Below, piece by piece: positions 1,375 to 45,566 of a stretch of 64,000 nucleotides of DNA (position 1 is the stretch's first letter; every line of letters starts with the position of its first letter). The notes below the pieces were generated by a model. The model was not told where the DNA came from. It did not search any database and worked only from the letters and a program-made list of their open reading frames with translations. The translations under genes were made by a program, and so were the position numbers. Origin of the DNA: Rhodanobacter fulvus Jip2 (lineage in GTDB: Bacteria > Pseudomonadota > Gammaproteobacteria > Xanthomonadales > Rhodanobacteraceae); assembly GCF_000264315.1 (NCBI RefSeq), contig NZ_AJXU01000028.1:1-64000 (forward strand). The letters run 5' to 3'.

Positions 1375-3405
<2,031 letters not shown>

Positions 3406-25615: not shown

Positions 25616-25700
25616 GCCCAGGTGGCGGAATTGGTAGACGCACTACCTTGAGGTGGTAGCGACGAGAGTCGTAGGGGTTCGAGTCCCCTCTTGGGCACCA
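25616..25700 (+). tRNA. tRNA-Leu (anticodon GAG)
   Basis: An 85-base tRNA with encoded CCA. The acceptor stem GCCCAGG pairs with CTTGGGC (one G-T). The anticodon arm CTACC-TTGAGGT-GGTAG gives anticodon GAG, reading CUU and CUC. A long variable arm (CGACGAGAGTCG) and the T-loop GTTCGAGTC are typical of class II leucine tRNA. The secG-tRNA-Leu order is common in proteobacteria. Confidence 0.97.
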
Positions 25701-41954: not shown

Positions 41955-42329
41955 GTGATCGCACAAATGGATGGATTGCCCGCTGGCACGCTGGGTTTCC
42001 GCGCCCACGGCCAGGTCACCGCCGCCGACTACGAGCGCGTGGTCGTACCCGACGTGGAAGCCGCGTTCGCGCTCAACCGCAAATTGCGCTTGCTGTACGT
42101 GATCGACGAGGACTTCACCGGATTCGATCCCGGCGCGATGTGGGACGACCTGAAGATGGGCGCGCGCCACTTCAGCGGCTGGGAGCGGGTGGCGCTGGTG
42201 ACCGACGTGACCTGGCTGCGCGCCACGGCCAACGCCATGGGTTTCATGGTACCCGGCGAGTTCCGCCTGTTTTCGCTGGCCGACCTGGAGACGGCCAAAC
42301 GCTGGGTCGCCGAATTGCTGCCGGGTTAA
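41955..42329 (+). CDS. SpoIIAA-like (STAS-like, DUF3478) protein
   Basis: A 124-residue cytoplasmic protein of the SpoIIAA-like family. Conserved features are GTLGFRAHGQVTAADYERVV, the LRLLYVIDEDFTGFD strand and AMWDDLKMGARHFSGWERVA, then ALVTDVTWLRATANAMGFM. The start is GTG at 41955 with GGAGA upstream; a longer reading frame through the REP repeat to 41802 is rejected. The role is unknown; some relatives are membrane-associated or regulatory. It is followed by the asn leader and asnB. Confidence 0.85.
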   Translation: MIAQMDGLPAGTLGFRAHGQVTAADYERVVVPDVEAAFALNRKLRLLYVIDEDFTGFDPGAMWDDLKMGARHFSGWERVALVTDVTWLRATANAMGFMVPGEFRLFSLADLETAKRWVAELLPG

Positions 42330-42358
42330 GGCATCGCCTTAATGTTGCAACGCGGCAC

Positions 42359-42387
42359 TTGCGTATGGACGTCCAATCTGTTCTATT
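42359..42387 (+). promoter_or_regulatory. Candidate promoter for the asn leader
   Basis: TTGCGT (42359-42364) and TCTATT (42382-42387) are spaced 17 bases, and TGT directly before the second gives an extended -10. The transcript would begin at about 42393-42395, that is at the leader ATG itself. No other Shine-Dalgarno-preceded start fits. Match to consensus is only moderate. Confidence 0.45.
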
Positions 42388-42394
42388 GACCAGC

Positions 42395-42517
42395 ATGCAT
42401 TTTCAGCCCGCCAGTTTTTTCATCGACGCCGCCGCTCTGGCGCGTCCTGGTGTGCTGGTCGGTCGCAATAATAATCGCGCGAATAATAACGCCAACCATT
42501 GGCGGGCCGGCGCGTAG
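42395..42517 (+). CDS. Asparagine-rich leader peptide of asnB
   Basis: A 40-residue frame ending GRNNNRANNNANHWRAGA. Seven of ten residues from position 25 to 34 are Asn (codons AAT and AAC at 42467-42496), an unlikely run by chance in GC-rich DNA. It lies 125 bases before asnB, on the same strand, followed by a terminator. This matches the leader peptides of trp, his and leu attenuators, in which codons of the regulated amino acid stall the ribosome. There is no Shine-Dalgarno sequence; an in-frame ATG at 42365 would give 50 residues. The coding function is inferred from position and codon content. Confidence 0.75.
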   Translation: MHFQPASFFIDAAALARPGVLVGRNNNRANNNANHWRAGA

Positions 42518-42551
42518 CTGAAGTTTCATCCCATACGCGAGAAGGCCCGCC
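42501..42551 (+). promoter_or_regulatory. Antiterminator pairing region
   Basis: GGCGGGCC (42501-42508), just after the last Asn codon, is perfectly complementary to GGCCCGCC (42544-42551), the 5' arm of the terminator. If a ribosome stalls at the Asn codons, the upstream segment is free to pair and blocks terminator formation. If it runs to the stop codon at 42515, it covers the segment and the terminator forms. Confidence 0.65.
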
Positions 42552-42572
42552 CAGTGCGGGCCTTTTTGTTTT
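42542..42572 (+). terminator. Attenuator terminator upstream of asnB
   Basis: A 9-bp stem AAGGCCCGC/GCGGGCCTT (42542-42550 with 42556-42564), loop CCAGT, then TTTGTTTT. It begins 25 bases after the leader stop and ends 70 bases before the asnB ATG. Its place between leader and gene shows it is an attenuator rather than an end terminator. Confidence 0.85.
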
Positions 42573-42641
42573 CGGGCGCGACAAAATCTTGCCGGGCAAC
42601 CGGCGACACCATCAATCACATTGACGAGAAGGGGTAGTGGC

Positions 42642-44324
42642 ATGTGTTCGATTTTCGGGATGTTTGATCTGCAGCCGGGCGACGACCTGGGCGCGTTGCG
42701 CCGCCAGGCACTGGAACTGTCGCAGCGCCAGCGCCACCGCGGCCCGGACTGGAGCGGCGTGTTCGTCGATGAGGGCGCGATCCTGGTGCACGAACGACTG
42801 GCCATCGTCGACCCGACCAGCGGCGCCCAGCCGCTGCGTTCGCGCGACGGCGTGCTGGCGCTGGCGGTCAACGGCGAGATCTACAACCACCGCGAACTGC
42901 GTGCCGCCAGCAGCTACGACTTCACCACTGGCTCCGACTGCGAAGTGATCAATGCGCTGTACCGCGAGCAGGCGGCCACCGATGTTGCGGGCGATTTCGT
43001 CAACAAGCTCAACGGCATCTTCGCGTTCGCGCTGTGGGACGGCGCGGCGAAGCGCTATGTGATTGCCCGCGATCCGATCGGCGTCTGCCCGCTGTACTGG
43101 GGTCACGACGCACAAGGTCGTCTGTGCGTGGCATCGGAGATGAAAGCGTTGGCCACGCTGTGCGCCGATGTGGCGCCGTTCCCGCCCGGCCATGTTTACG
43201 ACAGCGCCGTCGGCGAGCTGCGTCAGTACTACAAGAAGGACTGGCGCGAGTACGAAAACACGCGCGGCCATGACCTCACTCCCGCCGCCCTGCGCCAGGC
43301 GTTCGAGCAGGCGGTGCATCGCCAACTGATGACCGACGTGCCGTATGGCGTGCTGCTTTCCGGTGGCCTGGATTCATCGCTGGTGGCTGCCTGCGCCGCC
43401 CAGTTCGCCCGCGAGCGGATCGAGGACAACGACCGCAGCGAAGCGTGGTGGCCGCGCCTGCATTCGTTCGCGATCGGGCTGGAGGGCTCGCCCGATCTGG
43501 CCGCCGCGCAAATCGCCGCCGACGCGCTGGGCACCGTGCACCACGGCTTCATCTACACCTTCGCCGAAGGCCTGGACGCGATTCCCGAGGTGATCCGCCA
43601 CATCGAAACCTATGACGTCACCACCATCCGCGCCGCCACGCCGATGTACCTGCTGGCGCGCCGGATCAAGGCGATGGGCGTGAAGATGGTGCTGTCGGGC
43701 GAGGGCTCGGACGAAATCTTCGGTGGCTACCTGTACTTCCACAAGGCACCGTCGGCCGAAGCGTTCCACGAGGAAACCGTGCGCAAGCTCGACACCTTGC
43801 ACAGCTACGACTGCCTGCGCGCCAACAAGTCGATGATGGCCTGGGGCGTGGAGGCACGGGTGCCGTTCCTGGATCTGGAATTCCTCGACACCGCGATGGG
43901 CCTGGACGCGAAACACAAGATGGCCGGCAACGGCAAGATCGAGAAGCACGTGTTGCGCGAAGCGTTCGATGGCGCGCTGCCGAAGGAAATCCTGTGGCGG
44001 CAGAAAGAGCAGTTCAGCGATGGCGTGGGCTACGGCTGGATCGATGGCCTGAAGGACCATGCCGAACAGTCGGTCAGCGATCGCGAGTTCGCCGCCGCGG
44101 CGGCGCGCTACCCGTTCAACACGCCGACCACCAAGGAAGCGTATTTCTACCGCCGCATCTTCGAGCAGCACTATCCGAGCGAAGCCTGCGCCGCCACCGT
44201 GCCGGGCGGCAAGTCGATCGCCTGCTCGTCGCCGGCGGCCATCGCCTGGGATCCGTCCTTCGCTGCGGCCGCCGATCCGTCCGGCCGCGCGGTGAAGGGC
44301 GTGCACGAAAAAGCGCTGGCTTGA
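42642..44324 (+). CDS. asnB: Asparagine synthetase B (glutamine-hydrolysing)
   Basis: Makes asparagine from aspartate, ATP and glutamine. The start MCSIFGMFD leaves Cys as the N-terminal nucleophile of the class II glutaminase domain (about 1-190), with RHRGPDWSG and NGEIYNHRELR. The synthetase domain has the pyrophosphate loop LLSGGLDSSLVA (about 237) and SGEGSDEIFGGYLYFH. The 560 residues match E. coli AsnB (554). A GAAGGGG ribosome-binding site precedes the ATG. Its transcription is probably controlled by the leader and terminator just upstream. A REP doublet follows. Confidence 0.97.
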   Translation: MCSIFGMFDLQPGDDLGALRRQALELSQRQRHRGPDWSGVFVDEGAILVHERLAIVDPTSGAQPLRSRDGVLALAVNGEIYNHRELRAASSYDFTTGSDCEVINALYREQAATDVAGDFVNKLNGIFAFALWDGAAKRYVIARDPIGVCPLYWGHDAQGRLCVASEMKALATLCADVAPFPPGHVYDSAVGELRQYYKKDWREYENTRGHDLTPAALRQAFEQAVHRQLMTDVPYGVLLSGGLDSSLVAACAAQFARERIEDNDRSEAWWPRLHSFAIGLEGSPDLAAAQIAADALGTVHHGFIYTFAEGLDAIPEVIRHIETYDVTTIRAATPMYLLARRIKAMGVKMVLSGEGSDEIFGGYLYFHKAPSAEAFHEETVRKLDTLHSYDCLRANKSMMAWGVEARVPFLDLEFLDTAMGLDAKHKMAGNGKIEKHVLREAFDGALPKEILWRQKEQFSDGVGYGWIDGLKDHAEQSVSDREFAAAAARYPFNTPTTKEAYFYRRIFEQHYPSEACAATVPGGKSIACSSPAAIAWDPSFAAAADPSGRAVKGVHEKALA

Positions 44325-44332
44325 GGCACCCT

Positions 44333-44393
44333 TGTGGGAGCGACTTCAGTCGCGATGCTCTTGAAAGGCATCGCGGCTGAAGCCGCTCCCACA
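44333..44393. repeat. REP-like palindromic pair after asnB
   Basis: Inverted copies TGTGGGAGCGACTTCAGTCG... (44333-44358) and its near complement (44368-44393) with a nine-base spacer. It is the same family as at 41799, with a compensating A/T pair change inside the left arm. It lies eight bases after the asnB stop. Confidence 0.85.
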
Positions 44394-44440
44394 GACGCGT
44401 CTGGTATCCTTGGCGGCTTGCATCCCTCACCGACCTCATC

Positions 44441-45566
44441 ATGATCGAGACCAATCCCATCCATGCGCAGATCGCGGACCTTCGGGACCGCGTCGAGTCG
44501 CTTAGGGGGTACCTTTGACTACGCTACAAAAAGCGAACGTCTGGAAGAAGTAACCCGCGAACTGGAAAGCCCCACCGTGTGGGACGATCCGGCCCGCGCG
44601 CAGGAACTGGGCCGCGAACGCGCCCGCCTGCACACCATCGTCAACGGCATCGACACGCTCACCGCCGGGCTCACCGACGCCGGTGAATTGCTGGAAATGG
44701 CCATCGCCGACGAGGACGACGAGACGGCGCAGTCGGTCATCGCCGATCTGGCGCGGCTCGAAAGCCAGGTCGGCAAGCTGGAATTCCAGCGCATGTTCTC
44801 CGGCAAGATGGACGCGATGAATGCGTTCGTCGATATCCAGGCTGGCGCCGGCGGTACCGAGGCGCAGGACTGGGCCGAGATGCTGCTGCGCATGTACCTG
44901 CGCTGGTGCGAAAACCGTGGCTGGAAGACCGAGCTGATGGAAGTCTCCGGCGGCGACGTGGCCGGCGTGAAGTCGGCCACCTTCCGCGTCGAGGGCGACT
45001 ACGCCTACGGCTGGCTGAAGACCGAGATCGGCGTGCACCGGTTGGTGCGCAAGTCGCCGTTCGATTCGGACAACCGCCGCCATACCAGCTTCACCTCGGT
45101 ATTCGTGTCGCCCGAAGTCGATGACGACATCGACATCGACATCAACCCCGCGGACCTGCGAACGGACGTCTATCGGTCCTCCGGTGCCGGTGGTCAGCAC
45201 GTCAACAAGACCGAATCGGCCGTGCGCATCACGCACATCCCCACCAACACCGTGGTCGCCTGCCAGACCGGCCGCAGCCAGCACGCCAACCGCGATACCG
45301 CGATGAAGATGCTGGCGGCAAAGCTGTACGAGCTGGAAGTGCAGAAGCGCAACGCCGAGAAGGATGCGCTGGAAGCGACCAAGTCCGATATCGGCTGGGG
45401 CAGCCAGATCCGCAACTACGTGCTGGACCAGAGCCGCATCAAGGACCTGCGCACCGGCATCGAACGCACCGATACGCAGAAAGTGCTGGATGGCGACCTG
45501 GACGAATTCATCGAGGCAAGTTTGAAATCGGGCCTCGAAGCCGGCTCCAAACGCAGTGACGCCTGA
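44441..45566 (+). CDS. prfB: Peptide chain release factor 2 (programmed frameshift)
   Basis: Recognises UGA and UAA stop codons and releases the peptide. Translation starts at ATG 44441 ([14 protein letters not shown]), reads 25 codons to CTT at 44513-44515, then meets an in-frame TGA. A +1 shift continues at GAC (44517) into [12 protein letters not shown], giving 374 residues. Release features are intact: the SPF stop-recognition tripeptide ([12 protein letters not shown]) and GGQ ([14 protein letters not shown]). Regulation is the classical autoregulatory frameshift. It precedes the lysS gene, with one small gene in between. Confidence 0.96.
44504..44519 (+). promoter_or_regulatory. prfB +1 frameshift signal
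   Basis: AGGGGG (44504-44509) acts as an internal Shine-Dalgarno sequence. It is followed after three bases by CTTTGAC (44513-44519), the conserved slippery Leu codon, TGA and C. The spacing is the same as in E. coli. When RF2 is scarce the ribosome pauses at TGA and shifts forward by one. Confidence 0.95.

Follow-up and report, generated by a model that had tools for sequence, protein, structure and literature searches.

Ribosome-mediated transcription attenuators are described for Escherichia coli trp and Salmonella his, in which leader RNA regions pair in alternative ways to form a protector (I:II), an antiterminator (II:III) or a terminator (III:IV) (PMC1183508). Here we describe a locus of comparable architecture upstream of asnB in a 64,000-nucleotide (nt) stretch of the Rhodanobacter fulvus Jip2 genome (contig NZ_AJXU01000028.1, positions 1 to 64,000), hereafter called the window. 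Read from the sequence, the locus has the anatomy of an attenuator: an asparagine (Asn)-rich open reading frame (ORF), a terminator, and a leader segment at 42501–42516 that is complementary to 42534–42551. We conclude that it is very probably a ribosome-mediated transcription attenuator, one whose cue is charged tRNA-Asn and whose target is asnB, with a predicted response to Asn. Its recognition resembles that of the His leader of hisS/hisZ in bacilli, which was likewise predicted from a short ORF with cognate codons and a premature terminator (PMC2965389). The parts of the locus are as follows.

42359–42364, + strand: −35-like hexamer TTGCGT, 17 nt before the −10-like hexamer; comparable pairs occur in relatives.
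42382–42387, + strand: −10-like hexamer TCTATT, ending 7 nt before the ATG; predicts the start site.
42395–42517, + strand: leader peptide ORF with ATG at 42395 and TAG at 42515–42517, 40 codons plus stop, translated as MHFQPASFFIDAAALARPGVLVGRNNNRANNNANHWRAGA followed by the stop; counterparts occur in relatives.
42467–42496, + strand: regulatory Asn codons, seven among ten, read directly; the Asn columns keep the residue and swap AAC and AAT in relatives.
42490–42504, + strand: protector hairpin 1:2, CGCCAA (42490–42495) with TTGGCG (42499–42504), present in the ribosome-free fold; similar hairpins occur in some relatives.
42501–42516, + strand: antiterminator 5′ strand, GGCGGGCC (42501–42508) plus CGCGTA (42511–42516), the latter taking in the first two stop-codon bases.
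42534–42551, + strand: antiterminator 3′ strand, TACGCG (42534–42539) plus GGCCCGCC (42544–42551), the latter shared with the terminator 5′ arm.
42542–42572, + strand: intrinsic terminator, stem 42542–42550/42556–42564 followed by a T-rich tract; its lower stem covaries.
42642–44324, + strand: asnB, encoding a glutamine-hydrolysing asparagine synthase B and predicted to be the regulated gene (NCBIfam NF006949, 860 bits against a cut-off of 499; Pfam PF00733).

A preliminary description of this DNA had reported the Asn-rich frame, the terminator between the leader stop and asnB, and the perfect complementarity of 42501–42508 to 42544–42551, and re-reading returned the same coordinates for all three. 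The 8-bp core of the antiterminator also stands, but its extent is larger than was claimed: a second stem of 6 bp (42511–42516 with 42534–42539), which extends the pairing into the leader stop codon, had been overlooked. The same is true of the protector hairpin and the promoter-like pair; the rest of the anatomy is as that description stated.

According to the proposed mechanism, transcription would start at or beside the leader ATG. When Asn is short, the ribosome would stall at the Asn codons, and the antiterminator would then pair before the terminator 3′ arm exists, leaving asnB to be transcribed. When Asn is ample, transcription would stop roughly 175 nt from its start.

The Asn-rich leader is conserved in three families

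A first set of 80 asnB loci, kept from 537 and drawn mostly from Rhodanobacter, Dyella, Frateuria and metagenome-assembled genomes, carries a short ORF with 4–9 Asn per 13 codons upstream of asnB in 76 cases. By comparison, a like scan of 780 control segments (700 nt each, from loci of at least 7600 nt) yielded 7 with a short ORF holding at least 4 Asn in 13 codons, one of them with 5. Four loci lack the ORF and were dropped: L023 (123 nt upstream), L051 (60 nt), L068 (250 nt) and L079 (none in 3000 nt). The last of these (2500–3030), titled Rhodococcus maanshanensis, has an asnB that is 82% identical to that of the window and no Asn leader; the gene may have been transferred horizontally, or the record may carry the wrong name. 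Among named relatives, the closest found is Rhodanobacter sp. Root480, with an asnB that is 99% identical.

Across the order, an AsnB match occurs in 170 of 200 genomes, some of these matches being only distant relatives. A second set of 80 upstream regions from the same order, chosen mainly outside the closest relatives, contains leader and terminator together in 55: 18 of 20 in the window's family (f1), 34 of 36 in f2, which we infer to be the Xanthomonadaceae, and 3 of 3 in f3. The combination was found in 0 of 12 regions of f10 and 0 of 1 of f6, and f8 gave one weak candidate among 8. The four exceptions in f1 and f2 (G061, G180, G082 and G187) carry an AsnB that is only 63–64% identical, and thus the leader follows one asnB lineage. 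Among 25 fetched asnB genes of at most 71% identity, 24 are without such a leader and one has a weak candidate.

The f8 candidate, L159 (genome G073), consists of the leader MFAIYNTINTTNNRLLRSAGSF with a terminator directly after it, and ends 75 nt before asnB. It was set aside, and the remaining rows dropped from the second set, making 25 in all, are L104, L105, L141, L142 and those of f6, f8 and f10 (L146–L158 and L160–L166), which were excluded by their family label. Each dropped row has at most 3 Asn per 13 codons in the first scan, and L104, re-examined as L173, has no leader. A draw of 150 genomes from the class gave 4 that match AsnB at 1e-100, namely the own genome, two others of the order, and G307. 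This sole match outside the order was rejected as a candidate, its asnB having no upstream short ORF with at least 4 Asn.

Together, the 76 loci, the window and the 55 further regions provide 132 sequences, of which 57 remain at 85% identity. Some second-set genomes belong to the same species as first-set loci, and so the 132 are not independent; L101 and L078, for example, have an identical leader.

A covariance model, R1, built from 42 leaders matches 101 of the 200 genomes of the order at E values of 0.01 or less. Its 50 best places, each in a different genome and at E 7.2e-6 or less, all lie directly upstream of asnB, 48 of them in f1 or f3 and 2 in f2, most f2 leaders being missed. R1 finds few f2 leaders, and a second Asn leader elsewhere could likewise escape it. 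Five later matches that were inspected, in G051 (the 51st), G178, G152, G005 and G154, were rejected, these being, by eye, terminators 3′ of other genes with no Asn run; the one in G051 sits between genes that we take to be rpmA and obg.

Asn identity and leader geometry are maintained

Asn accounts for 17.8% of residues in the 132 leaders versus 2.4% in five long ORFs of the window, and no second place with at least 5 Asn per 10 codons occurs in the 64-kb window on either strand in any frame. When codon columns are anchored on the stop codon, positions −16, −15, −11 and −10 hold Asn in 69, 73, 72 and 73 of 77 rows, respectively. At these four columns AAC and AAT alternate, with 40 AAC and 29 AAT at −16, for example. 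AAT makes up 410 of 898 Asn codons in the leaders versus 7 of 69 in the five long ORFs.

The distance from the last Asn-Asn pair to segment 2, which was placed by the best 9-nt match, has a median of 14 nt (10th–90th percentile 14 to 19; n = 128, the leaders that have an Asn-Asn pair), and a median of 16 nt separates the start of segment 2 from the end of the stop codon (n = 132). With the ribosome covers as modelled, this geometry fits an arrangement in which segment 2 is left free while the ribosome is stalled and becomes covered once the ribosome has reached the stop codon. The stop codon itself is TAG in 117 of the 132 leaders, TAA in 13 and TGA in 2.

Alternative folds and their pairings

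Ribosomes were represented in folding by a model in which the bases they cover are imposed. With the RNA covered to 42495, as for a ribosome at the second Asn run (42482–42490), the antiterminator is the best fold, at −28.6 kcal/mol when the RNA is transcribed to 42555 and −31.0 kcal/mol when it is transcribed to 42572. With cover to 42527, as for a ribosome at the stop codon, the terminator is the best fold (−24.4 kcal/mol). Without a ribosome, the whole leader folds as the protector hairpin plus the terminator, and this 191-nt fold has a z of −2.43, with 3 of 200 shuffles as good. The leader stop codon reaches into the antiterminator stem, and the speed of release could matter there.

A hairpin before asnB is present in the window and was located by the terminator finder in the 132 sequences retained. 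L041, L043 and L054 have a poor T tract and fell outside the first terminator pattern; for L041 and L054 the energies indicate that the finder took longer folds. An antiterminator hairpin of at least 10 pairs can form in 55 of the 57 non-redundant sequences, the exceptions being L041 and L096, and a second stem of at least 5 pairs, interrupted in some cases by a mismatch, is present in 42 of 42 non-redundant sequences. The potential to form either antiterminator or terminator, but not both, is conserved across the relatives.

The sequences of the stems vary. For example, Dyella-like sequences form the second stem from GCGTGT and ACACGC, and many f2 sequences have the core GATGCGGGT with ACCCGCATC, within codons for P-M-R-V. 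Over the whole antiterminator, a sequence's own strands form duplexes with a mean of −21.98 kcal/mol versus −19.72 kcal/mol for swapped strands (0 of 10000 permutations as good; 57 sequences, three families). The second stem alone gives −9.30 for own pairs versus −8.56 for swapped pairs (0 of 5000; 42 sequences). Compared with dinucleotide-shuffled leader ends, 32 of 57 sequences reach 5 or fewer of 100. Judged by these comparisons, the pairing between leader and terminator is maintained through compensatory change.

The swap tests replaced column covariation on a MAFFT alignment, which understated the antiterminator because Rhodanobacter-like and Dyella-like sequences differ in pairing register by 2 nt. 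Of the 13 pairs from RNAalifold, 4 show compensatory change, 3 of them in the lower stem of the terminator and 1 in a small unused hairpin. The preliminary description had proposed attenuation of the trp/his/leu type for asnB, and had suggested comparing the Asn codon run, the terminator and the pairing in relatives. Its reading is well supported, and the refuting outcome it named for such a comparison, a lack of conserved Asn codons or pairing in close relatives, did not occur: codons, terminator and complementarity are kept in three families, with synonymous exchange of Asn codons and compensatory changes in the stems.

In L002 (about 2780–3000), repeated palindromic units around GGCCATCCATGGCCG lie between the terminator and asnB. 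Similar words follow the terminator in L011, L020, L041 and L043, and look like dispersed extragenic repeats.

A promoter-like pair precedes the leader ATG

In 119 of 133 sequences, an in-frame ATG follows the end of the −10 hexamer of the best −35/−10 pair at a distance of 6 or 7 nt, and the spacer between the hexamers is 17 nt in 95 of the 133. The 6–7 nt distance is found in 51 of 57 non-redundant sequences versus 19% of 2850 shuffles, a comparison for which the same score had served to choose the ATG and in which a few of the choices look mistaken (L036 and L123). This conserved promoter-like pair suggests that the leader mRNA is probably leaderless, or nearly so.

Weighing the attenuator against other explanations

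Several results count against a ribosome-mediated attenuator. When the RNA is covered to 42497, 42499 or 42500, the terminator wins at full length (−30.5 kcal/mol). For a ribosome stalled at the first Asn run, the antiterminator is the better fold in RNA that ends at 42555 but not in RNA that ends at 42572. The two full-length folds of the window are nearly tied in energy, which means that stability alone cannot settle the outcome and the order of folding has to. Among the relatives, the full-length fold retains at least 8 antiterminator pairs in 26 of 57 sequences, and the protector hairpin, clear in the window, is weak or different in some (mean z −0.53, with 39 of 57 below 0). The permutation tests are over-generous owing to the relatedness of the sequences, and inside single families the swap test is less extreme (45 of 10000 in f1 and 29 of 10000 in f2). 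Twelve of the 132 leaders hold only 3 or 4 Asn per 13 codons. Finally, a simple consensus scan of the + strand from 42000 to 43000 listed neither the leader promoter nor this terminator; our reading of this is that pairing of the stem extends into the T tract and that the hexamers score below the thresholds.

A different role for the terminator is conceivable, wherein it ends upstream transcription, from the SpoIIAA-like gene or the leader ORF, leaving asnB to a promoter of its own further downstream. Room for such a promoter exists in some loci, given that 72 nt separate the end of the terminator stem from the asnB start in the window and up to 384 nt do so in some relatives. However, the gap is at most 45 nt in 52 of 132 loci (the shortest being 25 nt, with an extended stem, then 28 nt), ribosome binding site included. 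The scan of 42000–43000 listed no + strand promoter, though it missed the leader promoter too, and a separate promoter would leave both the Asn codons and the complementarity between leader and terminator unexplained. We regard this arrangement as very unlikely. An equally slim chance attaches to a leader that responds to a general slow-down of translation or to a ribosome-targeting drug, with the Asn-rich stretch acting as a pausing sequence. Drug-sensing leader peptides have been described, for example upstream of msrD, and the high use of AAT in the leaders might itself slow decoding. Against this, the leader repeats the very amino acid that the next gene's enzyme makes, the identity of this residue is kept through synonymous exchange, and the leader is missing from 24 of the 25 more divergent asnB genes.

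It is even less probable that the ORF serves to make a small protein with a function of its own. A similar-sized open frame lies at the same place in all 132 sequences, though the search required an open frame. By eye, however, the N-terminal half is variable, and conservation resides in the Asn runs and in the last codons, which form the antiterminator strand; the peptide has no Pfam or NCBIfam match. Least credible of all is a riboswitch or T-box that regulates asnB with the ORF being incidental. Asn genes in Firmicutes are under T-box control, but the locus has no Rfam match at gathering thresholds, and the bases that are conserved in it belong to the Asn codons, to the stems or to the stop codon. 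The Rfam scan of the whole window at these thresholds returned no cis-regulatory family, a tRNA at 25616–25697 being the sole match. Thus, an attenuator that senses charged tRNA-Asn is the explanation we favour.

Asn-tRNA supply and gene neighbourhood

AsnRS (TIGR00457) scores over the cut-off in 191 of 200 genomes of the order, including the own genome (6.1e-187). This genome, a draft of 130 contigs that is 99.94% complete, has one full-length asnB of this type and two distant relatives, and neither gatB nor asnA was found in it. Given these two negatives, the cell should need AsnRS to make Asn-tRNA, with the Asn coming from AsnB or from uptake. Transamidation was set aside as a source of Asn-tRNA because gatB was not found.

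The 5′ neighbour of the leader is the SpoIIAA-like gene, and prfB lies 3′ of asnB, from 44463. The order asnB then prfB on the same strand (42642–45566 in the window) recurs in 63 of the 79 loci with 1000 nt of room.

Comparison with known attenuators

The survey of proteobacterial attenuators by Vitreschak et al. (2004) is said to list no Asn case. The terms asparagin, asnA and asnB do not occur in the main text of a broad terminator survey (PMC2965389), and Asn-type terms are likewise absent from the main texts of PMC1262725, PMC8632094, PMC11109978 and PMC1183508. In PMC3771888, asnB occurs once, in a table. No asparagine attenuator was found among the open-licence papers that the literature searches listed, and an earlier report elsewhere is possible.

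If our interpretation is correct, asparagine joins the amino acids that are sensed by ribosome-mediated attenuation, and it becomes testable why attenuation senses an amino acid in one lineage and other means do so elsewhere. The predicted short RNA may already sit as an unexplained small RNA in RNA-seq surveys of these bacteria, and the attenuator offers a natural sensor of Asn charging.

The terminated RNA also invites comparison with Sinorhizobium meliloti trpL, where attenuation releases a short RNA and the mRNA is leaderless (PMC7298713). There the amino acid is Trp in place of Asn; both the RNA and the peptide of trpL are reported to act in trans (PMC7298713). By analogy, two products of an attenuator ancestral in the order of the window might also act in trans, namely the leaderless RNA, about 175 nt long, that termination would leave and the Asn-rich peptide, but we consider this unlikely.

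The closest likeness is to trp and his, whose leaders are similarly rich in the product amino acid and place the regulatory codons in region I, immediately ahead of region II (PMC1183508). The present locus differs from them in its amino acid and gene (asparagine and asnB), in its probable leaderless start and in a protector that is not uniform among relatives, and it is by architecture that we liken it to them. In this sense it is very probably a trp/his-like attenuator in which the amino acid is a new one, asparagine, to which it is predicted to respond, and it is conserved in three families of one order.
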